Of a DNA stretch of 39,678 nucleotides, positions 177-19,462 are shown one piece after another. The stretch covers positions 1-39,678 of the forward strand of contig CAINDR010000020.1 in assembly GCA_903847415.1 (NCBI GenBank), in the 5' to 3' direction. Each line of letters begins with the position of its first letter. Position 1 is the stretch's first letter. The notes beneath the pieces were generated by a model. The model did no database searches. It was not told where the DNA came from and saw only the letters and a list, made by a program, of their open reading frames with translations. The stretch is from Candidatus Falkowiibacteriota bacterium. Lineage in GTDB: Bacteria > Patescibacteriota > Patescibacteriia > Patescibacteriales > UBA12465. Made by a program: the position numbers and the translations under genes.

Positions 177-3100
177 CTAAGGAAAAGCTCGATAGAAACC
201 CCAATTATCGGTAATTTTAATCTTAATCTTTCTGGAAGTGGCTTGAGCGCCAGCACTATAACTATAGTTATGAGAAATCGCGTGAGGACTTTCTAGGTTT
301 GGATGATTATCCTGAGTATTAATTAGATCAATTTGGCCATCACCCCAATTAATTTCAATATCGCCCAAGGGTTGTTGGTTTTTGTCCACAATAGTATTAA
401 ATTTAAGAGTATAATAACCAGGAGTAACTAACCATTCACCAGGAGCAACTGCCGGCAAAACCGCAGAGCTGCCATTCCCTCGAGACAAACTAACATTTTT
501 AATCTCTGGCAAGATTGCACAGAAATCCGAATCACTACTAGGACTAAGCCCAAAATTATCATTATCTGCTGGTCGAGAAGAATTGTTGCAAAGCTTAATT
601 TGGTAGACATCCTTATACTTATCAGTAGATGTGGAAAAATAAGCGTCATATGAATAACGATCATCCAAATTATAACCTAAAGCTCCCCAAAGCCAAGCAT
701 TTTTCGTGCTTAAAAAGATATTTTTCAAAATATTCTTTTGTGGAGCATTTTTAAAATCAGTGTTCTCTGAGGCATAATTATAAGAAATACAAGGTCCATC
801 AGCACTGCAAGAAGCATTTGTGCCATCACCACTAACAGTTAAACAATTAACTGCGGGGGCTTTTTCACAATAACCAAGATACTTGCAGGACCCCAAAGAA
901 TCGCCATCAACAGTTTTGTCAAAACAACTATATGGACGACCAGCGAGCGGGCTTTTTTCCGTGCCAGAATTATTATTGTTATAATAATTTGTTCCAAACT
1001 TCACTGCAGTATTGCTTAGACTATTTAGAAAAGAAGCAGCACCATAAGGAGCAGTTGCCGAAATAACCGTTTGACCAAACTTTTTAGCGAATAAACTAAA
1101 TGAACTCGAAGCGTTGTAACCAAACTCTTTAATTACTGGAAAGAAACTTGGTGAAGTGGAGGTGGCATAATCTGGATTAAAGATTCGGTCCATCCAAGGT
1201 TGCCCCTTGCCATCTTGATCCACAACTTGAACAAATTTATTGCAATGAGGGGTGAAGATTTCTTCGTCAGTAATACTTCCTACTCTGTTTGGATATTTTA
1301 ACCCTGCCTCAGTGGTTGGAACTGGGGATTGATTATGGTCAAAGACACGGATAGAGGTTTCTGAATATGGATATTTACAACCAGGAGCTTGACATCCAGG
1401 ATTTGAACTAGTGTCAGAGCCCCACAAATGTGGATCACGAACAACTAAATTGCCATCATATGGGTACCACCCATTAGTTCCAAAATTTGCACCATTTCCA
1501 AAAGAATCGCCACCAGCAGTTGTTAGTGTCACAGGAATAACTGTTATATCAACTAATTTCCCATTCAATGGAAGAGGAATACACATCACATCATATCCAT
1601 GCCATCCCCAAACAACTGCGGCAAAATAAGAAAGCGGTAGATCAGTTGGTTTATTTGGTTCACAGTATTGCCTAACAAAATTTTTATTAATATCCATTGG
1701 ATAATAACCATAGTTAGATCCAGAAGTATTCACATTAAAAAAAGCTCCGTTAAAAGGCCGACCAGAGTCATACCCTAAAAAGAAATGATTGTAATCACAA
1801 AGATTTTTACCCAAAGAAATAGATTCTTGTGTATCAAAATAACAATAAACTCCATCACTATAATTTTCAACTCCAGGTGATAGCTGTGTCGCACTACCTG
1901 AACCTGTATACCAGAAGTCTTGCCAATATCTTCTTGAAAACTCCCTCTTCTCCACTAAATCAAACTGGGCATTGGCCTCGGCACAATAATACAAAGGATA
2001 AACTCCACCTCTGCCAGCATAGCTTGTGCTCTTAATGTTTAGATTGGAAGAAACAATATTTTCTAATGGCAACCATTGCAAGCAAACTCCTGGATTCAAA
2101 GGATCATGTTGCAAACAATATCCCTCCCAACCATTCTTCACTACATTGGAATCACGACTAGTGCAAGTCAAACTAGCACTATCCTCGGTCGGATACATCC
2201 GACATTCTTTGGCTAGATAATTTCCTTGATCATTAGTATTTTGAAAATCGTTAATCTTCAAAACTGGCTCAATCTTAATATCATCATAATAAACAACCCC
2301 ACTACCATTACCAGTTGCCGTCTTTGTTGTGCCGAAAGTGATCGCTACTACTGGCTTACTGACTTTAATTCGATGAACAATTCTCTGCCACCCCCGACTT
2401 GTATCTTTAAAAGACTGCAAAACATTAGAAATATTACTGTCATCTAGCACTTTAACCATTGATTGCAAGCCAGACAAATTATCGGTATTAACCAAATAAC
2501 TCAAATAATATTCTTTATTTGGTGTGAGATTAACGCCTTTTTTTCCTAACATTTTTCCGTTAGCACTATCAATCCCTACAAAAGCTTTGCCTTCAGCTGG
2601 ATAAGAGACTCCGCTTTTCTTACCAGCGACTATTGGCGTTGGCTCATCAATCAAAACATAATCCCCAGCTGGCGCTGATGGGTTTGTATAATCTGGTGCC
2701 GTTACACTAGATGTAGAAGTTGGAGCGTTATTAGCAAACCACGTCTTAAAATCAAAAGGAGTAAGATTATTTTCAAAGTTAATTGCGAAATCAATCTTTT
2801 CACCAACTTCCTTCATGTTGGCAATATTATAAGCGTTCAGCAAACTATAGCCGGTGGCATTTTTATCTTGAGCATAATTAAAGACATGGGTCGAAGTGGC
2901 ACTACCCACAAAATTTCCACAACCACCACCCTCAGTGAGCTTGTCGCATTCATTCAAGGCATAACAGGTTTCCATTCCTGTTTTGTCATCTTTCACTGCT
3001 GTGGTGCAAGCCAACCAACGACTACAAACTCGATTCGGTGTCACCTTCACAACAACGTTAGCATTACAATTAATGGAATTTGCCGAACAAGCCACTGGCG

Positions 3101-6100
3101 AAGTGACTGAATTTAAACTGGCAAAAGCATTATAGGATAAAGGAGAGATTTGTCCTTTTGATCCATTGTTGGCACGATTATTAAATAGAACACAACCATT
3201 ATCAAAATCGACCTTCGAGTTACAAGATTTCAAATCAACATTGCCCTCTTTCTGGTATTCCACTACCGCTTCACGAACTTCGATTAATTTAGCTGGCTTG
3301 AATACTCCGCCGGTAGGCGTGGAATAGACATGACAAATTGAATTATATTTTGGAATAAAATAAACACCAATTCCATCGGGCAACTTGATTGTGGAAGTTG
3401 CTGTGCTAGAAATCTGGTTATCGGCTTGCAAAATATTAATTACCGAAGAACTAGCAAAATTATCACAAACAATTCTTTCCGCCCCCGATTGAGGCCCCGA
3501 TTGATCAGGTCGAACACTGCGAGCAAGATAAAGTTTGTGAGCATTTAAATAAATATCTTGTGAATAACCAGTTATCGTTGACGTTGCCCAGTTATCACCA
3601 ATTGTCCCATTATTATCAAGATCGTCAAAAGTTGGGTTCAAGACTAAATTTGGCGAAACCGCACTCGTAGAATCAATGTATTCCGAACAACCAGAAGCCG
3701 CAATTTCGCAGACACCAGCATCTTGTGAGGGTTGAGGAGCGCCTGCTCCAGTGTTTCCGATTGTCTTGGAATAAGAAACATCGCAAGGATGATCAGTGGT
3801 ATCAAGAACACAAGTTGAACCACTAAGACAATCACTATCAGAAGCACAAAGCGCTTCAGTGCCACTTACTACCCCATTTGGACCACATCTTTTCACTGGT
3901 TCTTTAAACCAACTCATCGACTGACTAGTACTACCACTTCCCGCTCGATAGCGACAAGCATTTCCATCTGGATTTCTAAAGAAAGATTTTCCTGCCTTCG
4001 AGTCGAAAAAGGTTTCACAACCAACAGCGCTTGCTTCACAAAGAGTTCCGCTTACACCTTCATAGTTGTCTGGATTATTTTTCAAGAAAACATCCGAGAA
4101 GAAAAGGTTGGTGCCAACTTTTTTCCCCTCACCAAGACGACTACAACCAAGATTATCAACAGAACATTCTTTCTCTGGATTAAAAATGGCATAAATCATC
4201 CGATCACCCAAAACATTCACAGTACTACTAGCAAAAGATTGTACAAATGGTGATTTTGAATTTCTTGTATCAATCATCGCCTCACAACCAGCTGAAGATT
4301 CATCGCATAAACTACTAAACTGACGAAGATTGTGAGAAACACCAAGCGGATCCTGATAAGCACTACAACCAAGATTATATTCTGCACCCCGATATTCATC
4401 ATTCAAATCATAATAACAAACATCATCAGTCAACCAAGAATCTTTAATCAAATAATAACGATCGGTTACCTCCGTTAAGACGATTGAATCTAGATAAATT
4501 GTGTCTTCAGAGCTGAGAACAAATTTTTCCCCTGCTTCAACCCGATGATTTAAGACTGGCAAACTTACCTGATAAACCTTCCACTCCACATCATCGATTT
4601 CAATTGAAGTGTTGGTATCAATACCGCTATTAAAGACGGCCTGGGTACCGCTAGCGTTTTCAAAATAAACCGAAAGATTTGCTCCCTGGTTACTTGCTTT
4701 GGCCAAAAATTTCAAATAATAAGCGGAACCATAACTAACATCCATCCTCATGTTTGCAGTCAAAGTGGCAGCAGTGGTGGCGTCTAACTTTAAGGAATGA
4801 CCATTTTTATTAGTTGAAATAGTGCTAGTCGCTCCGCCAACAAAAGGATTCACTGGATTTTCAAAATCATAAGTCGCAACATTGTTAACGTTGTTACCAT
4901 TATTGCCATTATATTCACGGCAACCTCTTTCTGCTTCCGAGCAAGAAGCACTTTGACTAGGCAAAGCTTTAAAGATACAAGTTGAGCTAGCAAAAGAACC
5001 GCCATTATTTGAACATTCGCTAGCAGTAACTGTTTCGTCTAAGCGTAATTTTCGACATTCCGAAGAGCAAGAAATAGTTTTGGAATAAAGATGATAAGAA
5101 ACTCCACCCGCTTTGTTGTAGAATTGACGACAATCTGGATTCGCATCTGGATCACCAACTGGCAACTTGAAAATTGCTTCGTTACATTCACTGCTATCGT
5201 CAGCAAAAACTTTTGGTGACATCGTTTGACCAGTGCTGGAAGCAACCAAATTAAAAGACTTCAACTGATAACCATTTTCCCCTTCTCCACTCCAAGAATA
5301 GAAAACTCCACAAGAGTTATCCGGTTGGACACAACGACGAAGAGCTGAATAATATTCATTATTTTCCCCTCCCTGAGCGACCTCATCAAGATTGGTGAAG
5401 CGAGAGCAACCAGCAGAAGCAGCTGAACATTTTGTGGCTGAATTTGGAATAAAATAATTTACTGAAACATCTTGGAAATTAGTCTTTCTTTGAACATAAG
5501 AATCATAACCAACGCAAACATCTGGACAATACTCATCAAAATTAACTTTTGCGGTCAAAGAGAAACCATCTCGATCAGAAAAAGTCTGGCAACCAACCTC
5601 ATCTTTATTACAAAGACGAGCAAAGTTATTGCAAATATCAGGTGCATTATCTTTCAGGCGATAATCCTTAACACCACTAGCAAAAGGATTTTTATAACAT
5701 AAACTTGCTAAATAATCCGGGATTAACTTTTCATTGGTTACTACTGGTTTGTCATTCACTAAACTATCACCATAATTTGACCAAGCAAACCCAGCGCTTC
5801 CTGCTCCGCGGTTATTAGCCTCTAGCTTAATTTTTCGGAGGGAGAAATTATTAGTGCCAGTCACTGAAAAATTAAGAGAACCAATTTCATCACTTGGGCG
5901 AGCAGTTAAGGAAATGGATTGCCATTCACCAGTACCATCAAACGTCTTACTGACTGAATCTGGTGCTCCTAAAGTTAAAGTGATACTTTGACTAGTTCCT
6001 AAATAAACTTCAGCACTCAAAGTATAATAATAACCACTAATGACAGTGCTGTTTTCCGGAATTACTGAGAAAGTGCCATCAGAAACTAAGCTCACATTGC

Positions 6101-8480
6101 TACCAGTAGTAGTGAGAGATAAAGCTTTCCCTGATCCTGAACCACTTACCACGCTATCACTAGTCACAACCTTCACAGATCCGCCATTAACCTGCCAGTG
6201 ATTATTCAAAATTCCACTAGCAGTAGAGGTTGAGCCCATTGGGTCTGCAGAAAAATCACTATTAAAAACAAGATTATCGCCCCAAGTTGGCTTCACTCTC
6301 ACCAAAGAACGACAACCTTCACTACTAGCGTCACAAGTTGCCGCTTTATCGTTCAAGAAGATGCTATAAGCATTATTTCCTGACCAAGAGATAGTGTTTG
6401 TTGTTGAGGTATAAGAACCGAAAGTTGAATATTGACGACAACCGGAGTTGCTATCATCACAAGAGCCGTAATCAAGGGTGTTTTTTAAATAGGAAATACT
6501 ATTCCCTTTTTGATCAGAAAAAGTTTCACAACTATTGTAGACTGCTTCGCAAGAATCACCATTAAAATTCCAAGTACGACGATCAGCGGTGCAATACCCC
6601 CAAGCATCACAAACCCCGTTAACTTCATTGATACAAGTTCTTTCGTCAGCACAATAATCATCAGCCCGAGAGATTGTGAGATCAGAAGCGGGACTGGTTG
6701 TGCCAGTTTGAAAAGGAATCATTGATAAAATTTGATTGCCAAAACCAGACTTTGCGCAACGAGTTTGAGGCGCCTTCAAAACCCAATTTGGATCAATCAA
6801 ACCGCGACACCAAGCCTGATTTCCCTCAATAGCTGGATTTTTGAAAGTCGCATATTGATCACTATCACTGAAACAAGAAATCATATCGCCTAAAGTGGCG
6901 ACTTTATTTTCCTGTGCTGCTTTTCTAATTGCTTCCTCCCAACCAACTGGAATAATTCTAAATTTTCTTAAAATCATTGCGTTGCGCAAGGAATATTTTT
7001 CATTGTAATCAAAAACTTTGCTATCAGCACTCAAAACACCAGACTTATTCAAAGATCCATCTTGAAGAGCTTGTCCAACTGTCTTCTGAGAAGAAATCGC
7101 TTCCATGAATTTACCATCAATAACACATTCATTCGGAGCAGGATTTTTTTGATCAGTGCAAACTGCTAATTGTCCAAGAATATCGTAATCAACTTGTTCT
7201 TTAAAATTTGGCGCAAAAGTCTCCATTAAAGCTTGTTGATTAGCAAGATAATCGTAAGAACCAGATCTATTACCATCAACGACAAAATTAGTGCCACCAC
7301 CAGTAGATGAGCCCCCTTCTAACTTGTTCATCCAGCGGTCAAAGGCGGTTTTTGCCATTTGATTTAAAAATATACCAGCAGCGTCCATAAAAACATCGCC
7401 AGTAAAAGTCCCCATGTTACTGATATATCCTTGTTTGGCAATTTCAGCGTCCGTCTTAGCTTTATCTGGAAGACCCTTAATTTTTCCACCAATGTTTGTT
7501 GGATCAATCCAACCACCCTTACCAAGTAATTGCACCCTCCCTTTATCCGCACTAAGACCAACCACCTCCATCATGCTAGTATTAATTTCTAAAGCTGCGC
7601 TAAGATCGGAAGATTGGACATCAAACATGTTTCGCAAAGCGCTATAAAAATTTTTATTTTTTTCTTCTTTTGTGAGTCCCGCGCCAGTTAAATCTTCATA
7701 AGCGCCCTTCACATCCCAAGCTTTTCTCATGTCTGACCAAGCACAATTTGGTCGAGATGGTCTATTTTGATTTACTAGGCCAAGAGAGATTTTCATTCTC
7801 ACGTTCAATGAAGGGGCGCAAAGATTCAAACTTGTTTTTTGCTTACCGCTAGCTGCCGCTCTATTGTTATTGGTGAGAGTATTTGTATAATTTGATTTAA
7901 CAGTGGTTATGCAATCAGTCATGTCCTTAAAGCAAGAATTTGAACATTTTTCTTTCGCAGCATTCATTTCATCAATAACGTTTGGAGAAAGTGGTCCGGT
8001 TGGATTATTATTACAAGTTTTATAACAACTATCGTAAAGATTCTCGCAATTCTTATCACCTCGTTCCCTTGCCTGCTCAGCTTTAATATCCCCCTCAAAA
8101 CTTGCCGCAAAACCTTCAATAAACTGCCCAGCAGCTTCATCACTAATTTCTGAAATATAATCACCTGGATTGGTGATAAAAAGAGGTTTTTGTCCTTGCC
8201 CCCCAGAACCAGCCCAGGTTGCAGCATCATAGGCAACTTTATTCAAAGCGGTACGAAGAGTTGATTGAAAAGCGCGAGAACCTGCTTTTTGAAGTAAAGT
8301 CTTGTTAGCATTCCAAGTTTTTTGTAAAAAAGTCCAAACCTGTCCAGGAATATCAGTGATAACCTCGGTAGGAATTGCTTTGGCTGGTGGCGCAAAAACA
8401 AAAAAAGAAAACAAAACAATCACTATTGAAATCAAAGAATTCTTAACGCGACCCTTTGGACGGGAAAAATTAAAACGCAT
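177..8480 (-). CDS. Giant (2767 aa) secreted Cys-rich repeat protein with jelly-roll/CBM-like segments and a PKD-like C-terminus; putative surface adhesin
   Basis: Uninterrupted ORF; N-terminal signal/TM segment (NSLISIVIVLFSFFVFAPPAKA); repeated C-x5-GC-x2-[FYLM] motifs; segments such as NLVFNSDFS...GEWQSISLTA...FSLRKIKLE typical of carbohydrate-binding jelly rolls; end GDIEINWGDGQ...HNYSYSAG is PKD-like. Confidence 0.85.
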   Translation of the reverse strand: MRFNFSRPKGRVKNSLISIVIVLFSFFVFAPPAKAIPTEVITDIPGQVWTFLQKTWNANKTLLQKAGSRAFQSTLRTALNKVAYDAATWAGSGGQGQKPLFITNPGDYISEISDEAAGQFIEGFAASFEGDIKAEQARERGDKNCENLYDSCYKTCNNNPTGPLSPNVIDEMNAAKEKCSNSCFKDMTDCITTVKSNYTNTLTNNNRAAASGKQKTSLNLCAPSLNVRMKISLGLVNQNRPSRPNCAWSDMRKAWDVKGAYEDLTGAGLTKEEKNKNFYSALRNMFDVQSSDLSAALEINTSMMEVVGLSADKGRVQLLGKGGWIDPTNIGGKIKGLPDKAKTDAEIAKQGYISNMGTFTGDVFMDAAGIFLNQMAKTAFDRWMNKLEGGSSTGGGTNFVVDGNRSGSYDYLANQQALMETFAPNFKEQVDYDILGQLAVCTDQKNPAPNECVIDGKFMEAISSQKTVGQALQDGSLNKSGVLSADSKVFDYNEKYSLRNAMILRKFRIIPVGWEEAIRKAAQENKVATLGDMISCFSDSDQYATFKNPAIEGNQAWCRGLIDPNWVLKAPQTRCAKSGFGNQILSMIPFQTGTTSPASDLTISRADDYCADERTCINEVNGVCDAWGYCTADRRTWNFNGDSCEAVYNSCETFSDQKGNSISYLKNTLDYGSCDDSNSGCRQYSTFGSYTSTTNTISWSGNNAYSIFLNDKAATCDASSEGCRSLVRVKPTWGDNLVFNSDFSADPMGSTSTASGILNNHWQVNGGSVKVVTSDSVVSGSGSGKALSLTTTGSNVSLVSDGTFSVIPENSTVISGYYYTLSAEVYLGTSQSITLTLGAPDSVSKTFDGTGEWQSISLTARPSDEIGSLNFSVTGTNNFSLRKIKLEANNRGAGSAGFAWSNYGDSLVNDKPVVTNEKLIPDYLASLCYKNPFASGVKDYRLKDNAPDICNNFARLCNKDEVGCQTFSDRDGFSLTAKVNFDEYCPDVCVGYDSYVQRKTNFQDVSVNYFIPNSATKCSAASAGCSRFTNLDEVAQGGENNEYYSALRRCVQPDNSCGVFYSWSGEGENGYQLKSFNLVASSTGQTMSPKVFADDSSECNEAIFKLPVGDPDANPDCRQFYNKAGGVSYHLYSKTISCSSECRKLRLDETVTASECSNNGGSFASSTCIFKALPSQSASCSEAERGCREYNGNNGNNVNNVATYDFENPVNPFVGGATSTISTNKNGHSLKLDATTAATLTANMRMDVSYGSAYYLKFLAKASNQGANLSVYFENASGTQAVFNSGIDTNTSIEIDDVEWKVYQVSLPVLNHRVEAGEKFVLSSEDTIYLDSIVLTEVTDRYYLIKDSWLTDDVCYYDLNDEYRGAEYNLGCSAYQDPLGVSHNLRQFSSLCDESSAGCEAMIDTRNSKSPFVQSFASSTVNVLGDRMIYAIFNPEKECSVDNLGCSRLGEGKKVGTNLFFSDVFLKNNPDNYEGVSGTLCEASAVGCETFFDSKAGKSFFRNPDGNACRYRAGSGSTSQSMSWFKEPVKRCGPNGVVSGTEALCASDSDCLSGSTCVLDTTDHPCDVSYSKTIGNTGAGAPQPSQDAGVCEIAASGCSEYIDSTSAVSPNLVLNPTFDDLDNNGTIGDNWATSTITGYSQDIYLNAHKLYLARSVRPDQSGPQSGAERIVCDNFASSSVINILQADNQISSTATSTIKLPDGIGVYFIPKYNSICHVYSTPTGGVFKPAKLIEVREAVVEYQKEGNVDLKSCNSKVDFDNGCVLFNNRANNGSKGQISPLSYNAFASLNSVTSPVACSANSINCNANVVVKVTPNRVCSRWLACTTAVKDDKTGMETCYALNECDKLTEGGGCGNFVGSATSTHVFNYAQDKNATGYSLLNAYNIANMKEVGEKIDFAINFENNLTPFDFKTWFANNAPTSTSSVTAPDYTNPSAPAGDYVLIDEPTPIVAGKKSGVSYPAEGKAFVGIDSANGKMLGKKGVNLTPNKEYYLSYLVNTDNLSGLQSMVKVLDDSNISNVLQSFKDTSRGWQRIVHRIKVSKPVVAITFGTTKTATGNGSGVVYYDDIKIEPVLKINDFQNTNDQGNYLAKECRMYPTEDSASLTCTSRDSNVVKNGWEGYCLQHDPLNPGVCLQWLPLENIVSSNLNIKSTSYAGRGGVYPLYYCAEANAQFDLVEKREFSRRYWQDFWYTGSGSATQLSPGVENYSDGVYCYFDTQESISLGKNLCDYNHFFLGYDSGRPFNGAFFNVNTSGSNYGYYPMDINKNFVRQYCEPNKPTDLPLSYFAAVVWGWHGYDVMCIPLPLNGKLVDITVIPVTLTTAGGDSFGNGANFGTNGWYPYDGNLVVRDPHLWGSDTSSNPGCQAPGCKYPYSETSIRVFDHNQSPVPTTEAGLKYPNRVGSITDEEIFTPHCNKFVQVVDQDGKGQPWMDRIFNPDYATSTSPSFFPVIKEFGYNASSSFSLFAKKFGQTVISATAPYGAASFLNSLSNTAVKFGTNYYNNNNSGTEKSPLAGRPYSCFDKTVDGDSLGSCKYLGYCEKAPAVNCLTVSGDGTNASCSADGPCISYNYASENTDFKNAPQKNILKNIFLSTKNAWLWGALGYNLDDRYSYDAYFSTSTDKYKDVYQIKLCNNSSRPADNDNFGLSPSSDSDFCAILPEIKNVSLSRGNGSSAVLPAVAPGEWLVTPGYYTLKFNTIVDKNQQPLGDIEINWGDGQIDLINTQDNHPNLESPHAISHNYSYSAGAQATSRKIKIKITDNWGFYRAFP
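3180..6560 (-). repeat. Protein-level Cys repeat array (C-x5-GC-x2-[FYLM], often followed by x-D-x-x-G-x-S)
   Basis: CDDSNSGCRQY, CDASSEGCRSL, CNKDEVGCQTF, CSAASAGCSRF, CSEAERGCREY, CDESSAGCEAM, CSVDNLGCSRL, CEASAVGCETF, CEIAASGCSEY in the translated ORF; degenerate copies SCEAVYNSCETF and CNSKVDFDNGCVLF. Confidence 0.85.
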
Positions 8481-8503: not shown

Positions 8504-9067
8504 TTATTTTACAGTCGAACTAGTAATTGGTTCACTCGCTGACGGCAAATTACCACTTGCTTCGGAATTCGCCTGATTTTGCAAAGATTCTTGATAAACT
8601 TTCAAAAGATCTTCATCACTAATTTGTTCAAGCATTTTCTGATCAGCACCACTCTGGAGCATTAATGAACGCAAAGAAGTTGCGCTCACTCCACCAGTTA
8701 ACAATTTTTCCAGCTCTGCTTGTTTAGAATCACCAGTCATCACTGAAGGGTCTTGTTCGAAGTTAAGAGAGGGGTCGATGGTGTCACTTGAAGTAGCTAA
8801 TAAATAACCAGGAACCTCTAAATTTTCACTAGCCACTGGAGTGCCGGTAGCTGTGGCAGGATTCTCGGTCATTAAACTAGAAATATCATTTGCGCAATCT
8901 CCCGTCTGACAACCAAAAGTAACTTTCTGATTCTTCTTAGTTTGTCCGGTATCAAATGGCTTGTTCAATCGGGTTTTGAATTGCCAAGCAGCACCAAAAA
9001 ATATAAAAATCGCCACAAAACCCAAGGCAATAATGGCGACTTTTTGGTTTTTATCAAATTCTCGCAT
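8504..9067 (-). CDS. Hypothetical single-TM membrane protein (ORF opens at 9100; MREFDKNQK start preferred)
   Basis: TM helix VAIIALGFVAIFIFFGAAW, then a Ser/Thr/Glu-rich extracytoplasmic region with FGCQTGDCAND; lies between rsmA and the giant ORF, same strand, 23-bp gap. Confidence 0.65.
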   Translation of the reverse strand: MREFDKNQKVAIIALGFVAIFIFFGAAWQFKTRLNKPFDTGQTKKNQKVTFGCQTGDCANDISSLMTENPATATGTPVASENLEVPGYLLATSSDTIDPSLNFEQDPSVMTGDSKQAELEKLLTGGVSATSLRSLMLQSGADQKMLEQISDEDLLKVYQESLQNQANSEASGNLPSASEPITSSTVK

Positions 9068-9100
9068 AAGTAATAAATAAGGAAAAAATATTTGCCTCAA

Positions 9101-10971: not shown

Positions 10972-11751
10972 TTAGCCTTTCAAGTTCTCCACCTCAATTC
11001 CCACCGGAGCATGATCTGAGCCAGTTGTTTGATCAAGAATAAAAGCTCTTTTGAGGTGTTTTTTTATTTTTTCTGAAACACAAAAATAATCAATCCGCCA
11101 GCCAACATTTCTCACTCGAGCCATCGCTCGATAACTCCACCAAGAGTATTGAATTTTATTATCATTTAAAAAACGGAAAGAATCAACAAAGCCTTGATCA
11201 ATAAAAGAAGTCATCCAAGATCTTTCTTCATTGGTGAATCCGGGGTTACCAATATTTTCCTTTGGTCTTGCTAAATCAATTTCTTGATGAGCAACATTAA
11301 AGTCGCCACAAATAATTACTGGCTTCTTTTTTTCTAGTTTTTTTAAATTAAGAACCAAATAGTTATTGTAGGATATTTTGTAATCTAGTCGCGAAAGCTC
11401 GTGATTGGCATTAGGAAAATAACAATTTACTAAATAAAAATCAGCAAATTCCAGAATTTGGGTTCTCCCTTCGTTATCAAAACTTTCCTCTCCAAAACCA
11501 TTTTTAACACTAATCGGTTGAACCACCTGATCACGAACTAAAACAGCAGTACCACTATATCCTGGCCTGGAAGCGCTATTCCAATATTCGAGGTAACCAG
11601 GGAAATCGAAAGTAGTCTCCTCTTGCGTGCTTTGAGAAATCTTAATTTCCTGCAAACACAAAACATCGGGCAATTCTGCCCGAAGAAAATCAGTGAATCC
11701 TTTTTTGAGTACCGCACGGATACCATTAACGTTCCAAGAAATTAACTTCAT
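10972..11751 (-). CDS. xthA: Exodeoxyribonuclease III family (ExoIII/XthA, AP endonuclease); ORF opens at 11805, MKLISWNVNG start preferred
   Basis: MKLISWNVNGIRA, LCLQEIK, CGDFNVAH, DYFCVS, GSDHAPV motifs. Confidence 0.93.
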   Translation of the reverse strand: MKLISWNVNGIRAVLKKGFTDFLRAELPDVLCLQEIKISQSTQEETTFDFPGYLEYWNSASRPGYSGTAVLVRDQVVQPISVKNGFGEESFDNEGRTQILEFADFYLVNCYFPNANHELSRLDYKISYNNYLVLNLKKLEKKKPVIICGDFNVAHQEIDLARPKENIGNPGFTNEERSWMTSFIDQGFVDSFRFLNDNKIQYSWWSYRAMARVRNVGWRIDYFCVSEKIKKHLKRAFILDQTTGSDHAPVGIEVENLKG

Positions 11752-11810
11752 AGAGAAATAATTATGTGATATAATAATGATACTAAAAATTAGACATTCT
11801 TTCAATCAAT

Positions 11811-12602
11811 ATGGATAACGAATTACAAGATCGAATTCGCTTAGCGGACATCAAGGCTCGACATAAAAACAAACTAAAGCCCTGGTATAAAAAATGGTGG
11901 GGGGTAACCACCATTATCCTCGCCATGATTATTCTTTCTTTAGTAACAATGGCCGTGCTCTATGTTTACCAAAGCGCCAAAAGAATTAATGCTGATCGAG
12001 AAGCGCTTTATTCCGGCAAAAGACCAGATTTGATTAAACTGTTAGTTGAAGGGCAAAACCGTCCTTTTCTTGGCAACCCCGAAGCTAAAATTGTGATTGT
12101 CGAATACTCAGATTTTGCTTGCCCTTACTGCAAAGACAATCAAGCTGCCATCAAATCCATCTTGAAAAAATATGGAGCTCAAGTCAAGCTAGTTTTTCGC
12201 AACCTCATTCTTCATGAAGATTCTGAATCATTATCACTAGCTGCTCTCTGTGCTGGCGAACAACAAAAAAATGGCAATAGTCTTTTTTGGCCAATGCATG
12301 ATCAACTATTTAATTTGCAAGGAAAAATCACTGCTGCCGATTTACCAAAAATTGCTACCGGACTTGGCGCAAATGAAGAAACTTTTAACACTTGTTTAAA
12401 GAGTGGAAAATATTTGGGAATTTTAAATATCGACATGGAAAATGCGAATGCTCTTGAAATTACTGGTTCCCCAACTTGGTTTATCAACAACTACAAAATT
12501 GATGGCCTCGTCACCGAAGAAGAATTAGAAAGTATGATTAAGGAATTGATTACTAATGGTCCAGGAGTTGACGAAACAAGTGTCACTCCAGAAACAAAAT
12601 AA
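11811..12602 (+). CDS. Membrane-anchored DsbA-like thiol:disulfide oxidoreductase (thioredoxin_4 type)
   Basis: N-terminal TM (VTTIILAMIILSLVTMAVLYVY), VEYSDFACPYCKDNQ (CPYC active site), ITGSPTWFINNYKI (cis-Pro region). Confidence 0.9.
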   Translation: MDNELQDRIRLADIKARHKNKLKPWYKKWWGVTTIILAMIILSLVTMAVLYVYQSAKRINADREALYSGKRPDLIKLLVEGQNRPFLGNPEAKIVIVEYSDFACPYCKDNQAAIKSILKKYGAQVKLVFRNLILHEDSESLSLAALCAGEQQKNGNSLFWPMHDQLFNLQGKITAADLPKIATGLGANEETFNTCLKSGKYLGILNIDMENANALEITGSPTWFINNYKIDGLVTEEELESMIKELITNGPGVDETSVTPETK

Positions 12603-12606
12603 AAAC

Positions 12607-13179
12607 ATGCAAGAAATTAGAATTCATGGACGAGGAGGACAAGGGGTGGTCACAGCGGCTGAATTAATTGCGACTGCTGGTTTTTTTGCTGGCCTTCAAA
12701 CTCAAGCCTTCCCTCTTTTTGGCGTTGAAAGAAGTGGCGCTCCAATTTCTGCTTTCGCCAGAATTTCCAAGGAAAAAATTATCACTAGAGATCAAGTCTA
12801 TCGACCAGATTTTTTAATTGTTCAAGACTCAAGTTTATTAAGCCAAAAAAATATTTTTTCTGGTTATTCTGAACATACTTTAATTATTATCAATAGCGAA
12901 AAAAGCTCAAAAGAACTAGCCAGCTACATCAAAAAAGAGGTGGGCATAAAAATTAAAGAAAAAAATATTTATAGCGCACCAGCTACCGAAATTGCTATTA
13001 GAATTATCGGAAAAAATATTATCAATACTGTTATTCTTGGTATTTTTGCAAAAGCCAGTCAATTACTTACTTTAAGCGACTTAGAAAAAGCAATTACCAA
13101 AAAATTCCAAAACAAGGACCAAGAAATTATTAAGAAAAATTTAGAAGCAATCAAAGAAGCTTATGACTACCAAAAATAA
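12607..13179 (+). CDS. porG: 2-oxoacid:ferredoxin oxidoreductase gamma subunit (ORF opens at 12556; ATG 12607 preferred)
   Basis: MQEIRIHGRGGQGVVTAAELIA, FGVERSGAPISAFARIS. Confidence 0.93.
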   Translation: MQEIRIHGRGGQGVVTAAELIATAGFFAGLQTQAFPLFGVERSGAPISAFARISKEKIITRDQVYRPDFLIVQDSSLLSQKNIFSGYSEHTLIIINSEKSSKELASYIKKEVGIKIKEKNIYSAPATEIAIRIIGKNIINTVILGIFAKASQLLTLSDLEKAITKKFQNKDQEIIKKNLEAIKEAYDYQK

Positions 13180-13396
13180 TTCACTTAGTAATAAAACTGG
13201 CAATTGGCGAACTCATCGGCCAGAAATTAATCACCAAAAATGCATCGGCTGTTCTTTGTGTGCAAAAATTTGTCCAGAAGCTTGCATTGAAATGAAAAAC
13301 CACAAAGCCTTTGTGGATGACGATTATTGCAAAGGATGCGCTCTCTGCGCTCATGAATGCCCAGTGAAAGCGATTGAAATGAAAGAAGATTTTTAA
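13163..13396 (+). CDS. porD: 2-oxoacid:ferredoxin oxidoreductase delta subunit (2x[4Fe-4S] ferredoxin)
   Basis: CIGCSLCAKICPEAC and CKGCALCAHECPVKA. Confidence 0.93.
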   Translation: MTTKNNSLSNKTGNWRTHRPEINHQKCIGCSLCAKICPEACIEMKNHKAFVDDDYCKGCALCAHECPVKAIEMKEDF

Positions 13397-13397
13397 T

Positions 13398-14564
13398 ATG
13401 AAAAAAAATCAAAAACAACTATTAGAGGGATCAAGGGCAATTGCCCTAACGATTGCCAATATTCAACCAGAGGTGGTGAGTGCTTATCCAATTACTCCGC
13501 AAACTCATATCGTTGAAGACTTAGCAACTCTTTACGCTAGCGGAAAATCAAGTTTTGAATATGTGCGCGCTGAAAGTGAATTTTCCGCTGCCTCAATCGT
13601 AATGGGGGCAAGTGCTGCTGGCGCTAGAACTTATAGTGCCACTAGTGGACAAGGACTACTCCTTATGAATGAGGTGGTCTATTGTATTGCCGGTTTGCGT
13701 CTTCCGGTTGTCATGACTGATGCCAATCGAGCGATCTCGGCACCAATCAATATTTGGAATGATCATAGTGATGTAATGACAATTCGCGATGCTGGTTGGT
13801 TTCAGTTTTTCGCTGAAAATCACCAAGAAGCTGTTGATCAACATGTCTTGGCTTATAAACTAGCTGAAAAGCATCGTTTACCAGCAATGATTAATGTGGA
13901 TGGCTTTCTTGTCACTCATTTATTTGAACCCGTAGAAATCCCCAGCACGACTTTAATTAAAAAATTTCTTCCCAAAAGACCGGTTAAAAAAGGAGAGGTG
14001 CTTGATCCAAAACATCCAAGTACTCTTGGCGAATTCTATGGACCAGAATATTACTTCGAATCCAGACAAAAACTTCACGAAGATTTAATGACGAGCATTA
14101 AAGATATTAATAGTGAATACAAAAAACTACAAAGAATATTTGGACGAAAAAATAAAGAAGCAAGAATTGATAATGGATTACTTGAATATTGTGGACCAAA
14201 AAAACCAAAGAAAATTATTGTCGCTATGGGTTCAGTAATTGGCACTATTAAAGAAACCTTGAAAGACAAAAACCACCAAGATGTTGGCGTTTTAAAAATA
14301 AAATGTTTTCGTCCCTTTCCATATCAAGAAGTAAAAGAGATTCTTAGGAACAGCGAGCAAGTAGCAGTTCTAGAAAAGATTTCCAGTAATGGCAGTTTTT
14401 CACCATTATACTTAGAATTAACTGCCGCTTTGCAAAATGAAAAAATCATTATCAATAATTTCATCGCTGGCTTAGGTGGAAGAGATATTAGTCGAGCAAT
14501 TATTAAAAAAATGCTCAATTCAATTAGCGCTAAAAACATTAAACCGATTTTTCTTGGTAAATAA
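13398..14564 (+). CDS. porA: 2-oxoacid:ferredoxin oxidoreductase alpha subunit
   Basis: SAYPITPQTHIVE, YVRAESEFSAASIVMGASAAGARTYSATSGQGL. Confidence 0.94.
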   Translation: MKKNQKQLLEGSRAIALTIANIQPEVVSAYPITPQTHIVEDLATLYASGKSSFEYVRAESEFSAASIVMGASAAGARTYSATSGQGLLLMNEVVYCIAGLRLPVVMTDANRAISAPINIWNDHSDVMTIRDAGWFQFFAENHQEAVDQHVLAYKLAEKHRLPAMINVDGFLVTHLFEPVEIPSTTLIKKFLPKRPVKKGEVLDPKHPSTLGEFYGPEYYFESRQKLHEDLMTSIKDINSEYKKLQRIFGRKNKEARIDNGLLEYCGPKKPKKIIVAMGSVIGTIKETLKDKNHQDVGVLKIKCFRPFPYQEVKEILRNSEQVAVLEKISSNGSFSPLYLELTAALQNEKIIINNFIAGLGGRDISRAIIKKMLNSISAKNIKPIFLGK

Positions 14565-14575
14565 TTATCAAAAAT

Positions 14576-15838
14576 ATGAGAAAACACAAAAAAAACCTTT
14601 CTAAAAAAGTTTTTACTTATTTTATTGGCGTTTATTTTGTGCTTTCTGGGATTTTAATAAGTAGAAATGATATTTTAGCTGCTGGTGGAATTGGCACGGC
14701 CTGCACAAACAACGCTGAATGCACTTATGGCTTGTATTGCTCAACTGCTCCAATCTCAAACTATCCAGCCAATACTTGTATTCCACAAGCTACTGCTGGA
14801 GCAACGCCAGTGACCACCGCTGATATGACCGAAGTCTTGGCCCCCAAGAAAAAGATGGTTGAGACAATAAAATTTACACCCCAAATCGGAATACCGGGGT
14901 CTTTTGAAAAAGGAACTGCTTATGACGCAGGGGAACAAAAAATAAATTCTACTACCGGAAAAACGGAGATGGCCACTAATCTCTTTTCCAAATATCTTGG
15001 GGCATTTTACCGCTACGGCTTATCCATTGTTGGTCTTATCGCAACTGTTACTTTAATGGGTGGTGGAATTCTCTGGTTAACTTCGATGGGGAATGATAGT
15101 AAAATTACTAAAGCCAAGGAAATGATTTTTGGTAGCCTAGTTGGAGTTGCCCTCCTTTATGGATCATACTTAATTCTCAACACAGTTAACCCAGCAATGG
15201 TCCAATTAAAAAGTATTAATACCCCAATTATCGCGCCAGTTGAACTAATCTGCTGTCAATTCTCTAATGACGCCAAAATGATTACTGATGAAAAGTGCGT
15301 TAGTGAGAAGGGGAAAAGAAAATATGGTTATAGCAAAGAAGGTAGTTTGTGTGTCAAAAATGGTTGTTGTGTTGTCACAATCAAAACTACAAAAAACGAA
15401 TATACTCAATGCCTAGAAACCAGTAGTGGTCTTTGCAAAATGAAATTTTGGAATCCTACTTCCTTTAAATTCCATGATGCTCAGTGCTCAGATCCAAAAT
15501 CTGGTGTCTCCGCTATCTGTGCTAATAACATGTTTAATTGTGAGGGAATAGAAGACGGCGAAGACTGCCAATATAACGTGGGAACTACAAAAACAAACAA
15601 AATCACCAAAGAACTCCCTGGCGCAACCTGTTATGGTGGAACTTGTTATCTTAGCGGTGATCAAATGGGCCTAGGAATGCCATGCGGAAATCGTCCTGGA
15701 AGTTTATGCTATCGAAATAATTGCAGTGGTAAAAGTAGCGATGGAAAAGAATTGTATACGGACAAAAAGGATGTTGATTTTAAGGATAATTGCGCAAAGG
15801 GATTAAGTTGTTGTAATACTAAAACCGCTTCTGAATAA
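14576..15838 (+). CDS. Cys-rich secreted/membrane protein with TrbC/VirB2-like two-TM core (paralog 1)
   Basis: Signal peptide; RYGLSIVGLIATVTLMGGGILWLTSMGNDSKITKAKEMIFGSLVGVALLYGSYLILNTVNP; Cys-rich N- and C-terminal ectodomains. Confidence 0.82.
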   Translation: MRKHKKNLSKKVFTYFIGVYFVLSGILISRNDILAAGGIGTACTNNAECTYGLYCSTAPISNYPANTCIPQATAGATPVTTADMTEVLAPKKKMVETIKFTPQIGIPGSFEKGTAYDAGEQKINSTTGKTEMATNLFSKYLGAFYRYGLSIVGLIATVTLMGGGILWLTSMGNDSKITKAKEMIFGSLVGVALLYGSYLILNTVNPAMVQLKSINTPIIAPVELICCQFSNDAKMITDEKCVSEKGKRKYGYSKEGSLCVKNGCCVVTIKTTKNEYTQCLETSSGLCKMKFWNPTSFKFHDAQCSDPKSGVSAICANNMFNCEGIEDGEDCQYNVGTTKTNKITKELPGATCYGGTCYLSGDQMGLGMPCGNRPGSLCYRNNCSGKSSDGKELYTDKKDVDFKDNCAKGLSCCNTKTASE

Positions 15839-15858
15839 CAAAAATAATAGTTAACGTT

Positions 15859-17142
15859 ATGAAAATAAAAAATAATAAACAAATAATAATAAGGATATTT
15901 GGATATTTTTTTGTTACCTATTTTTTATTAACCGGAATTCTTGTTAGTCGCACAGATGTTTTTGCTTATGGACTCGGAACCGGGGAATCTTGCGCCAAGG
16001 ATGAAGAGTGTGATGGTGCAAATAATCTTGCCTGCATTATTCCTCCAGGTGTTTGTGCTCCACCAGGATCAGGGACTCTTTGTAATTCTAATAGCTATTG
16101 CGAAAATCAAATCGAGCCAAAAGGAACAATGTCTTGCCAAAAAGTTTGGGGACAAGGATATTGTTTGCCAAAAACAAAAATTCCCACCAATCTCGATTTA
16201 AATGCAATTGAGGAAAATTACAAACCAAAAACAGCAACCAAGCCAGTTGAATCCTTAAAATTTACCCCCCAGGTTTCAATTCCTAATTCTTACATCCAAG
16301 GAACGGTTAAAGTTGGCTATTCTACTGGCACAAAAATGGCAAGTGATTTATTGCCACAATATGTTGGCAGCTTCTATCGCTATGGGTTAATGATCGTTGG
16401 GCTAATTGCGACTGTCACTTTGATGGGTGGTGGAATTCTCTGGCTAACCTCAATGGGAAATGATAGTAAAATTACTAAAGCTAAAGAAATGATTTTTGGT
16501 AGCTTGACCGGAGTGGCCTTGCTTTATGGATCTTATTTAATTTTAAATACCATTAACCCGGAGCTGATCCAGCTAAAAACAATTGAAAGCCAAAGTATTT
16601 CCAAAGTGGAACTGGACAATGTCTGTTGTCTCACTGCCAGCAAATCTTTTATGACCAACTCCACTCAGTGCTTAAAAGAAAATGGGAAAAGATTTTCTGG
16701 CGCTTATGCTAAAAATGGCCGATGCGAACAAGGTGGTTGTTGTGTAAGAAGTGTGCATTTCAAAAATAACACAAAAGATCCCCAAGTTTTAAAATGCACC
16801 AAAAAAACAGATAAAAAAAATGGATGTGAGCCAGATGTTCTCTCAAGTAACGGCAATAACCTTGTTTCTGAATACAAAGATTTTTCCTGTGAATCATTAG
16901 TGGAGTGCAAGGGAACGAATTTTGATGTTTGTGAGGGCGTAGAAAATGGAAAAGGAGTATTTGGTGGTTATTGTTTTGATGGTTTCCTTTTAGACGATGA
17001 GGGAAAAGTTGGAGAAAAATGTGGAAGAAGTGGCGGAATATGCACAAAATTAAAGGCATCAGAATCTTGCGATGACTGGGACGCTAATGGAAGAAGTTGT
17101 GCTGAAAACGGAGTTTGGTGTTGTGTTGGTGGCCGATATTAA
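15859..17142 (+). CDS. Cys-rich secreted/membrane protein with TrbC/VirB2-like two-TM core (paralog 2)
   Basis: Same core RYGLMIVGLIATVTLMGGGILWLTSMGNDSKITKAKEMIFGSLTGVALLYGSYLILNTINP; different Cys-rich ectodomains. Confidence 0.82.
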   Translation: MKIKNNKQIIIRIFGYFFVTYFLLTGILVSRTDVFAYGLGTGESCAKDEECDGANNLACIIPPGVCAPPGSGTLCNSNSYCENQIEPKGTMSCQKVWGQGYCLPKTKIPTNLDLNAIEENYKPKTATKPVESLKFTPQVSIPNSYIQGTVKVGYSTGTKMASDLLPQYVGSFYRYGLMIVGLIATVTLMGGGILWLTSMGNDSKITKAKEMIFGSLTGVALLYGSYLILNTINPELIQLKTIESQSISKVELDNVCCLTASKSFMTNSTQCLKENGKRFSGAYAKNGRCEQGGCCVRSVHFKNNTKDPQVLKCTKKTDKKNGCEPDVLSSNGNNLVSEYKDFSCESLVECKGTNFDVCEGVENGKGVFGGYCFDGFLLDDEGKVGEKCGRSGGICTKLKASESCDDWDANGRSCAENGVWCCVGGRY

Positions 17143-17166
17143 AAAGATTTAATTATAAAAAGCGAA

Positions 17167-18039
17167 ATGAATACCTCAAAAAAACTCCTCCTCCCCGGAC
17201 ATAATGCTTGCGCTGGTTGCGGACAACTCGTTGCGGTGCAGGCTGTCATGAGAGGACTAAATGAAAATACAATTATTTCCAACGCTACTGGTTGTCTTGA
17301 AGTGACTTCATCTTCACATAACCAAAGCGCCTGGAACATTCCTTGGATCCACACGCTATTTGAAAGCGCTGCTCCAGTAGCTTCTGGTATCTTAGCCGCT
17401 TTAAAAAATAAAAAAATAAAAAACCCACCAACAATTGTTGTTCAAGCAGGAGATGGTGGAACTTTTGATATCGGTTTTGGCCAAGTAAGTGGGATGTGGG
17501 AAAGAAATGAAAAAGTTTTATATATCTGTTACGACACCGAGGCTTATTCCAACACTGGGATTCAAGCTTCTGGCGCAACTCCTTATGGCGCTTCAACAAC
17601 AACCACTCCAAATAGTGAATATTCAATTGGTTCAAGTCAAAAAAAGAAAGACATGATTGGGGTTGCTTTGTCTCATGGGTTGCAATACATTGCTCAAAGT
17701 ACTGCCGGCTTTCCTGATGACATTACTAAAAAAGTCAAAGCAGCATTGGAGTTTGATGGACCAACTTATATTCAAATTCTCTCTCCTTGTATTCCTGGCT
17801 GGAAAATAAAAAATGATGAAGCGGTAATAATGGGAAAACTAGCTGTTGAAACAGGACTCTACCCACTCCTAGAATACCGAAATGGGAAATTAAGCTCTTC
17901 CAGCGTTAATGATAACTTCTCAAAAAAACCAGTCACAAAATATTTAAATAGCCAAGGACGATTTAAACATTTAAAAGAATTAGATCTGGCTACTATCCAA
18001 GAAATTGCTAATAAAAATATTGAAAAGTATAAAATATGA
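17167..18039 (+). CDS. porB: 2-oxoacid:ferredoxin oxidoreductase beta subunit (TPP-binding)
   Basis: GHNACAGCGQ, GDGGTFDIGFGQVSG, YDTEAYSNTGIQASGATPYGA, SPCIPGW. Confidence 0.95.
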   Translation: MNTSKKLLLPGHNACAGCGQLVAVQAVMRGLNENTIISNATGCLEVTSSSHNQSAWNIPWIHTLFESAAPVASGILAALKNKKIKNPPTIVVQAGDGGTFDIGFGQVSGMWERNEKVLYICYDTEAYSNTGIQASGATPYGASTTTTPNSEYSIGSSQKKKDMIGVALSHGLQYIAQSTAGFPDDITKKVKAALEFDGPTYIQILSPCIPGWKIKNDEAVIMGKLAVETGLYPLLEYRNGKLSSSSVNDNFSKKPVTKYLNSQGRFKHLKELDLATIQEIANKNIEKYKI

Positions 18040-19415
18040 GATATCTTAGAAGGCCATTTCTTTTGCTTTTTCCTTTGTTGCTATTAACATTTTTTTTAAT
18101 TGCGCCAACTGCTAAGGCTGCTTGCGCCTGGCTAAATACCTGCAACCAAATCTACCACCTTGAAACTATAAGTGGTGGCTGTAGCGCTCCAGGAATAGCA
18201 CCAAATGCGAGTTCAAAATGTTGTTGTGATGGTGCTAATGTTACTGCCGCTCTAGTTAATGCCACCAACATGAGCTCCTGCAGTTGGCAACCCGCTTTAC
18301 TGGGAAAACCTTGTGGCTCTCTACCAACTTCTGCTGTTACCCAAGCAGATAGTTTTTGCTCTGGCAGCCAAAAAACTGACGTCAATGCTAGTTGTTGCTG
18401 TCTCCCAAAAGATGCTTTGATTGTTGTCAAACCAGCTGCTGTTTTAAATAATCCTTTTGATAACCTAAATATTGAAATCCCTGGATTATACAAATCACTT
18501 GGCTGTATCTACAATAAAGAAACCAAAAAATATGAATGCCCAAAAGTAAATTGCGAGGAAGGTGATAACGGCGCCGCTGCTTGCAACGTTCCTTGGATTG
18601 GCCAATATATTATTGCTATCTATAACTATGCTCTGATTGTAATCGGCTCAATTGCTGCGGTCACAATCATGATGGGTGGTTTATTATGGTTAATCTCTGG
18701 TAGTAATGCCTCTCGAATGAAAGTTGCTAAAGAAATGATTATTGGTAGTATTAGTGGTTTAGTAATTATGTTTTCTTCCTACATGATTATCTCCGTCGTA
18801 AACCCCAGGCTCTTAATCTTTAAGCCTATTAGTATTGGCTATATTGAACCTTATCCGCCAGATGAACCAAGCTCTGCCAGTGAAGTCAACGAACCTAGTA
18901 TTTTTAATGATGCTTGCAAGGCATTTAGAGCAACAAAGGGTACAAAATCTTGTGAAAATTTAGTCGGAAAAGAACCGGCAAATTTATCTAACGTTTTTGG
19001 TGGTGGCAAAAAAAGACTAAACGCTGACTTTGCTCAAAAATTAAAAGTCGCTCTAAAATGTGTGAAAGATAAAAATGGCGGTAAAGATATGTTTGTTGTT
19101 TCAGCTGGTGTTCGTACCGCCCAAGTATCTATGGATTTATATAACACTTACATAAACAATCCAAAAAATGCCAATAAAGCAGCTGATCCTTGCTGCTCAA
19201 GACATATGACGGGAAATGCTGTTGACCTTCAAAGAACCTCTTACACAGTGAACTGGTTTAACCCCGGTTTAACTGGAGAGAAAAAGAAAAAATTTATTGA
19301 CGAACAATGGGCTTATGTGAAATCAGTGGGCTTGGTTGATTGTATGAAACAAGCTGGAATACCAGGTGGGTTTGTGGATAGTGAGCCTTGGCATTGGTCA
19401 ACAAGTGGTCGTTAA
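18036..19415 (+). CDS. VirB2-like two-TM protein with Cys-rich N-domain fused to a C-terminal M15 (VanY/D-Ala-D-Ala carboxypeptidase-like) domain
   Basis: Signal peptide (APTAKAACAW); TM pair YALIVIGSIAAVTIMMGGLLWLISGSNASRMKVAKEMIIGSISGLVIMFSSYMIISVVNPR; M15 motifs SRHMTGNAVDL and SEPWHWS; overlaps porB stop by ATGA. Confidence 0.85.
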   Translation: MRYLRRPFLLLFPLLLLTFFLIAPTAKAACAWLNTCNQIYHLETISGGCSAPGIAPNASSKCCCDGANVTAALVNATNMSSCSWQPALLGKPCGSLPTSAVTQADSFCSGSQKTDVNASCCCLPKDALIVVKPAAVLNNPFDNLNIEIPGLYKSLGCIYNKETKKYECPKVNCEEGDNGAAACNVPWIGQYIIAIYNYALIVIGSIAAVTIMMGGLLWLISGSNASRMKVAKEMIIGSISGLVIMFSSYMIISVVNPRLLIFKPISIGYIEPYPPDEPSSASEVNEPSIFNDACKAFRATKGTKSCENLVGKEPANLSNVFGGGKKRLNADFAQKLKVALKCVKDKNGGKDMFVVSAGVRTAQVSMDLYNTYINNPKNANKAADPCCSRHMTGNAVDLQRTSYTVNWFNPGLTGEKKKKFIDEQWAYVKSVGLVDCMKQAGIPGGFVDSEPWHWSTSGR

Positions 19416-19426
19416 TTTTATATTTC

Positions 19427-19462
19427 AAAAAGACTGGCTCTTATCGGAGTCAGTCTTTTTTT
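19427..19462. terminator. Bidirectional intrinsic terminator between convergent genes
   Basis: aaaaagactggctc-ttatcg-gagtcagtcttttttt; 14-bp arms with one non-Watson-Crick pair. Confidence 0.9.

Follow-up and report, generated by a model that had tools for sequence, protein, structure and literature searches.

A conserved operon-like cluster in ABY1/Falkowbacteria that encodes a ferredoxin oxidoreductase, a DsbA-like protein and cysteine-rich pilin-like proteins

The window (the whole stretch of 39,678 nucleotides that we analysed) contains a gene cluster which encodes a pyruvate/2-oxoacid:ferredoxin oxidoreductase (POR), a DsbA-like protein and three pilin-like proteins, hereafter PILs. The initial annotation described DsbA, POR and cysteine-rich pilin-like proteins with two transmembrane (TM) segments as one cluster, and the comparison with relatives bears this out: the cluster is conserved and operon-like. 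Starting from its gene content and order, its conservation, the protein domains and the cysteine parity, we find it somewhat probable that it is a vertically inherited operon of ABY1/Falkowbacteria, a large lineage of tiny uncultured Patescibacteria, and that it co-produces POR, DsbA and disulfide-rich, wall-active PILs in the service of an envelope apparatus. We found no description in the literature of a link of this kind between metabolism and the cell surface.

Gene content and organization of the cluster

The cluster consists of eight genes on the + strand, in the order dsbA, porG, porD, porA, pil1, pil2, porB and pilM15. All the genes named in the initial annotation are present on that strand and where it placed them, but it counted nine. 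The intergenic distances range from -17 to +24 bases, porB and pilM15 overlap by 4 bases, and the genes are presumably co-transcribed. A consensus scan detected a candidate extended -10 promoter on the + strand (TTCATA-N17-TATAAT, 11747..11775, 10/12 matches), with a TG before the second hexamer and the ATG of dsbA 36 bases downstream; the scan gave 46 promoter-like sites overall, when 37.7 were expected, which is near chance. The strong terminator said to close the cluster is indeed an intrinsic terminator (19427..19461, fold of -19.7 kcal/mol, z = -8.6), which is probably shared with a converging RNase H gene. The latter and an exonuclease III-like gene flank the locus in the window.

Searches with Pfam and NCBIfam profiles show that all four subunits of a PorGDAB enzyme are encoded on the + strand: the gamma subunit PorG (12556..13179; TIGR02175, 183 bits, over its cut-off; PF01558, 131 bits), whose true start is probably 12607, since homology begins at residue 18; the delta subunit PorD, which resembles a 2x[4Fe-4S] ferredoxin (13163..13396; TIGR02179, 93 bits, over its cut-off); the alpha subunit PorA (13398..14564; POR_N 9e-69, PFOR_II 4e-22; best NCBIfam model PorA_Arch, 407 bits) and the TPP-binding beta subunit PorB (17167..18039; TPP_enzyme_C 7e-18; best NCBIfam model PorB, 339 bits). 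The top-scoring NCBIfam models are of the pyruvate type, yet the scores are under the equivalog cut-offs. The set resembles the PorGDAB enzymes of the archaeal/Thermotoga type, with all four subunits and the usual G-D-A order, but differs from them in that pilin-like genes part porA from porB and dsbA stands in front.

Conservation in relatives

Within the order, 43 POR loci (window included) have adequate upstream DNA and were compared. A DsbA gene is present in 43/43, and a pilin-like gene lies between porA and porB in 43/43, so the association of the two with POR is not due to chance. The initial annotation had considered that this gene order might be unique to the assembly; on the contrary, all 43 loci are syntenic. 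The layout is kept across the families fetched, and elsewhere in the class it recurs in five more families, at seven loci (L154, L157-L162). In three further families of the class (L148-L153, L155), DsbA accompanies POR and PIL is absent, which argues that DsbA does not serve the PILs alone. Neither DsbA nor PIL occurs at the POR loci of the other lineages fetched, which include most other Patescibacteria and many other phyla. On the PorB tree, the distribution of DsbA requires 2 changes and that of PIL requires 4, and every DsbA/PIL cluster lies within one clade.

A chance clustering or an assembly artefact is ruled out by the same layout in named Falkowbacteria MAGs of other studies (L107-L109). 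A mobile-element origin was set aside, as within the family of this genome the locus is flanked on both sides by genes of matching sizes and strands.

Another possibility is that PIL and DsbA joined the POR operon once and were kept because operons break up slowly, with no functional link to POR. POR clusters devoid of PIL do exist, and the site between porA and porB tolerates insertions, since toxin-antitoxin-like genes occupy it in other families. However, the order is retained across many families, with PorB identities down to 49-60%, and the porA-PIL-porB core stays intact in a genus whose operon is inverted or split (L078), which makes such hitch-hiking distinctly unlikely.

The DsbA-like protein

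The first gene (11811..12602, + strand) encodes a protein with an N-terminal membrane anchor and a thioredoxin fold that bears a CPYC motif. Its assignment as DsbA-like is upheld by the Pfam matches (Thioredoxin_4, 5.2e-27; DSBA, 3.9e-18), and the protein has the features that define a DsbA: CxxC, the fold, and predicted export via the N-terminal TM segment. In an alignment of 61 operon DsbAs, the CPYC site is CxxC in 53/61 and CxxS in 8/61. This genome encodes four DsbA-like proteins, and only the operon copy has CxxC. The protein shares with the DsbA/Thioredoxin_4 oxidoreductases the membrane-anchored fold, the CPYC motif and two further conserved cysteines; it differs from them by its location in a metabolic operon and by the lack of a partner, since profile searches of this genome gave no match to VKOR or DsbB (PF07884, PF02600). 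The weak VKOR matches in relatives, where inspected, are tandem small pilins.

The lack of DsbB and VKOR, and the fact that the association of DsbA with POR is wider than that of PIL with POR, would fit a direct coupling, in which electrons from POR and ferredoxin, or the redox state, govern DsbA and the disulfides of the PILs across the membrane. However, the operon has no transmembrane electron carrier, DsbD_TM was not found in this genome, and the hairpin of the PILs has no conserved cysteine (its core has 0 Cys, rarely 1). We consider this coupling very improbable. The tie between POR and PIL would be one of co-expression rather than direct chemistry, with porB and pilM15 translationally coupled: the spacing between porB and PIL is -4 in 13/27 loci and no more than 6 bases either way in 24/27, and one more locus has a 29-base overlap.

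The pilin-like proteins

Pil1 (14576..15838, + strand) has a signal peptide, a cysteine-rich segment, a TM hairpin of the T4SS_pilin type (aa 141-204) and a cysteine-rich tail (20 Cys). Pil2 (15859..17142, + strand) is a paralogue of Pil1 (43% identical), with the hairpin at aa 169-232 and 8 + 18 Cys outside it. PilM15 (18036..19415, + strand) has a cysteine-rich N-terminus (16 Cys), the hairpin at aa 192-255 and a C-terminal metallopeptidase domain of the VanY/M15 type. The scores with PF18895 (T4SS_pilin) are 18.5, 18.3 and 20.6 bits for Pil1, Pil2 and PilM15, respectively, under the cut-off of 26.6, while relatives at the same operon position reach up to 39.5 bits. Among the 75 PILs tested, 73 match PF18895 at E<=0.01 (40/41 first PILs and 33/34 second PILs). 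Of the two families, PF18895 describes these proteins better than PF04956, which the initial annotation had suggested.

Most PILs have three hydrophobic segments, which fits a signal peptide followed by a pair of TM helices joined by a short polar loop. The AlphaFold predictions, which had few homologues to draw on, are too poor for use (pLDDT 54 for Pil1 and 40 for PilM15); the low-confidence model of Pil1 has helices at 136-169 and 174-204. In profile searches against solved structures, first PILs matched nothing, and a second PIL gave only a weak match to a D-Ala-D-Ala dipeptidase (E 0.15).

First-type PILs have between 2 and 46 outer (extracytoplasmic) cysteines. The count is even in 72/75 of these proteins, and in 31/33 when one protein per genus is kept, versus 56 even and 33 odd counts in control proteins. 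This is the pattern predicted by paired disulfides, and it backs the proposal that the PILs are disulfide-stabilised. In second PILs, the count is odd in 8/24.

The PILs may instead be genuine VirB2-like subunits that form the pilin or the tip of a surface filament of the T4SS type for host attachment. Many Patescibacteria carry VirB2-like proteins near virB4, and Ca. S. epibionticum requires a pilin array (PMC12102498). These VirB2-like pilins share with the PILs the signal peptide, the two-helix hairpin and, probably, the Pfam family PF18895. The genome does encode VirB4, PrgI and a VirB6-like protein. The initial annotation saw no VirB4/VirB6 in the window; the T4SS genes lie on a different contig (G000:C15), where the locus adjoins radA and recG, as likewise reported for ABY1 (PMC12102498). 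However, the PILs are not co-encoded with VirB4, VirB6 or VirB3, as would be expected of VirB2 pilins; they lie inside the POR operon, away from virB4. They are about 230-830 aa long, with large tails that are cysteine-rich or bear enzyme domains, unlike the tandem pilins of the same genome, which have 106-142 aa and are nearly Cys-free. Giant fusions of TIG domains to the pilin hairpin were also seen, and these and the wall-active fusions described below suggest that the hairpin doubles as a general anchor. We therefore consider the filament unlikely.

Wall-active domains of the second PIL

The second PIL often bears a wall-active domain that is swapped between relatives: M15, SLT, 3D or C39-like. 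The best E-values among relatives are 1.8e-24 for SLT, 1.3e-14 for VanY/M15, 2.4e-12 for C39_2 and 2e-6 for 3D; profile searches found no recognised enzyme domain in several second PILs. The peptidoglycan-active domain that characterises VirB1-type proteins is thus recognised in relatives, and in the window the M15 motif is sub-threshold (VanY/M15, 21.2 bits for a cut-off of 25), with an intact catalytic pattern, HMTGNAVD...EPWHW. No SLT gene is found elsewhere in this genome. PilM15 belongs to a series of fusions of the pilin hairpin to swappable wall-active domains, which favours wall remodelling or anchoring over a simple pilus.

These proteins resemble the wall hydrolases VirB1, TrsG and CD419 of T4SS (SLT plus CHAP in monoderms) in that SLT, peptidase or C39-like domains are exported in a T4SS-bearing lineage. 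They differ from them in that the domain is fused to a pilin hairpin, is interchangeable between genera and is encoded with POR.

Proposed function

We propose that the operon makes together POR, a membrane-tethered thiol oxidoreductase of the DsbA type and exported hairpin proteins with disulfide-rich outer domains. The PILs would be exported by Sec, with the hairpin in the cytoplasmic membrane and both ends outside, and their disulfides would be formed or repaired by the operon DsbA, whose substrates they probably are. The wall-active domain displayed on the second PIL (M15 here; SLT, 3D or C39-like in relatives) would cut peptidoglycan locally, making possible the assembly or anchoring of an envelope-spanning apparatus. 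Most plausibly, the PILs would partner the VirB4-type T4SS of the lineage, encoded elsewhere.

A 2025 survey reports that VirB1 is missing from most VirB2-bearing Patescibacteria, and its text mentions neither pyruvate nor thioredoxin (PMC12102498). In ABY1, the VirB1 role might be filled by PILs with interchangeable wall-cutting heads, which a dedicated DsbA would fold and which would be produced solely while POR-based energy metabolism runs, an idea that we offer as speculative and fairly unlikely. If it is true, the assembly of a surface machine, and perhaps attack on the wall of a host cell, would be tied to the metabolic state.

Significance

In a huge group of uncultured bacteria, the operon ties central metabolism to the machinery of the cell surface by a genetic link that is clear and open to test. 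It is a rare example of a pilin-type membrane hairpin that carries swappable enzyme heads, and the second PILs are specific candidates for the enzymes that open the wall, which according to the T4SS survey most Patescibacteria lack (PMC12102498).

Organization of the directon

The directon (11811–19415, + strand) comprises dsbA, porG, porD, porA, pil1, pil2, porB and pilM15; the order read in the initial annotation is borne out, while its count of nine genes is wrong, as eight were listed and eight are called. The genes are tightly packed: taking 12607 as the probable start of porG, the successive gaps measure 4, -17, 1, 11, 20, 24 and -4 bases. The strong terminator claimed at its end is confirmed (fold of -19.7 kcal/mol, z -8.6); it looks bidirectional, and probably also serves the RNase H gene that converges on it. 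Upstream of dsbA, at a distance of 36 bases, is a candidate extended -10 promoter, but such promoter-like matches occur near chance level in this A+T-rich region.

Upstream, an exported 2767-aa protein (177–8480, - strand) contains 88 cysteines, arranged in repeated Cys motifs, and weakly matches the carbohydrate-binding domain CBM_4_9; its gene is preceded by one encoding a small 198-aa protein whose N-terminus has a membrane segment (8504–9100).

The genome (0.93 Mb, 96% complete) contains the window as its contig C20. The nearest named relatives by PorB identity (85% and 83%) are Candidatus Falkowbacteria MAGs; we use the label ABY1 on the basis of this match and of the T4SS neighbourhood, not of a taxonomic assignment of the window itself. 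The data are MAG contigs, with simple ORF calling and hydropathy-based prediction of TM segments; the structure models were unusable.

Protein families

In profile searches, the operon DsbA scores well above the cut-offs of Thioredoxin_4 and DSBA, and PorG and PorD exceed those of the PorC_KorC and PorD_KorD subfamily models, respectively. The best scores of PorA and PorB are with pyruvate-type models, yet they fall below the equivalog cut-offs, so that pyruvate is only the likely substrate.

Pil1, Pil2 and PilM15 match T4SS_pilin (PF18895) below its cut-off. Scans of relatives that occupy this position in the operon favour the assignment of these pilin-like proteins (PILs) to the family: PF18895 is found at E<=0.01 in 40/41 first-type (Pil1/Pil2-like) and 33/34 second-type (PilM15-like) PILs, several of them over the cut-off. 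The genome encodes 15 hairpin cores of this kind. Six are in tandem VirB2-like small pilins of 106–142 aa, almost devoid of cysteine, on contig C43 (L199:1-2515). Another begins a 1976-aa protein with TIG and Big_5 domains and 113 cysteines on contig C15 (L200:1839-7769), from which it seems that the hairpin is used as the anchor of very large surface proteins.

Conservation of the association

PorB was found in 83 of the 111 genomes of the order searched. About 130 POR neighbourhoods were retrieved, their ORFs called and scored by phmmer/HMM; family counts go by group codes without names. The association noticed in the window extends to the order: all 43 order-level loci with >6 kb upstream of porB (window counted) have both dsbA and, between porA and porB, a pilin-like gene. 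With a shorter flank, L080 has a PIL only downstream of porB. In one genus (L078) the operon is split, dsbA-porG-porD being inverted away, and porA-PIL-porB is kept. Other families of the class have either the order of the window with longer PILs of 452–833 aa (L154, L157-L162) or, in three families, dsbA-porGDA-porB without PIL (L148-L153, L155). Neither DsbA nor PIL was found in POR clusters with the more distant type of PorB, from many phyla and other Patescibacteria (L111-L144, L163-L171, L175-L184).

A quick PorB tree, which has SH-aLRT support only and does not distinguish gain from loss, calls for two changes in the DsbA state and four in the PIL state. The simplest reading is one old POR-DsbA-PIL association, with a few later losses. 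In family f48 of the phylum (L173, L174), a same-clade PorB, possibly acquired by horizontal transfer, occurs in a cluster that lacks DsbA and has different genes separating porA from porB. In five genomes the PorB match is in two pieces inside one open frame, with ~55–110 extra bases between them; the break is at query residue 152 in G045-G047 and near residue 82–90 in G008 and G015.

In other families, small toxin-antitoxin-like genes lie between PIL and porB (L081, L085, L086, L089, L095, L099 and others), sometimes HigB/HTH pairs or 23S_rRNA_IVP; a 70–73 aa protein (MLYFTKYAEKKFDILNKHKV...) is recurrent there, often followed by a DUF2283-like protein. Because such genes also collect at the porA-porB site, we regard as a serious rival the idea that the PIL and dsbA genes are hitch-hikers, without function in the POR operon. 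The most likely reading is that the directon is a co-expressed module of POR, DsbA and envelope proteins.

Cysteines and DsbA

First-type PILs have 2 to 46 cysteines outside the hairpin and signal peptide, and the count is even in 72/75 (31/33 with one per genus), against 56 even and 33 odd among the remaining proteins of these loci that have at least six cysteines; these are related proteins, hence not independent draws. Parity is weaker when signal peptide and hairpin are counted too (21 even vs 12 odd genera), which places the effect in the outer domains. Parity held over such a range of counts is as expected from fully paired disulfides. The pattern is looser in second-type PILs, with 16 even counts and 8 odd. 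Matches to the disulfide-rich domain Dickkopf_N occur in two first-type PILs.

The operon DsbA of the window has the motif CPYC; CxxC is retained in 53/61 operon DsbAs, and 8/61 have CxxS. The other three DsbA-like proteins of the genome have SQDS, QSFS and CPYG at this position. The search for VKOR found none; DsbB was not found in the genome or in 38 of the 39 relatives searched, and DsbD_TM is absent from the genome and present in some relatives. The initial annotation had tied the expression of the apparatus to central redox metabolism; a direct redox coupling of POR to DsbA or the PILs finds little support.

Wall-active heads and the T4SS

The C-terminal head of the second PIL is swappable between loci: VanY/M15 (window, L047, L051, L101 and others), SLT lytic transglycosylase (L082, L099, L102, L105; weak in L069), 3D (L097; weak in L056, L100) or C39-like peptidase (L070, L074, L079, L106). 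Family f1 has both M15 and C39 heads, and several second PILs lack any recognised head. In the window, PilM15 keeps the M15 pattern H-x2-G-x-A-x-D ... E-x-W-H with a score under the Pfam cut-off. In L105, an additional membrane-anchored SLT protein is encoded by a gene of its own, located between the PILs and porB. That the PILs form a filament, as initially proposed, is possible, but long tails and enzyme heads fit anchors or tip-like parts more than a simple pilus.

Contig C15 encodes a PrgI homologue, a VirB4-type ATPase (P-loop_TraG, 1.7e-27) and an 883-aa 8-TM protein without Pfam match, named VirB6 by its position only. This locus adjoins radA- and recG-like genes and matches the description of the ABY1 T4SS in PMC12102498. 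It includes the DsbA-fold protein with SQDS replacing CxxC (L198:12079-13068), whose gene immediately follows that of VirB4 and precedes radA. According to the same survey, VirB2-like PF18895 proteins are widespread in Patescibacteria and VirB1 is mostly absent; which glycosidases replace VirB1 is left open there. Its text mentions neither pyruvate nor thioredoxin, and searches of open-licence papers found no description of the POR/DsbA/pilin combination.

From their family and the missing VirB1, we infer that the PILs may help the T4SS. In the proposed co-expressed module, POR would supply energy and acetyl-CoA, DsbA would assist folding, and the hairpin-anchored, disulfide-rich and wall-active proteins would serve the envelope.
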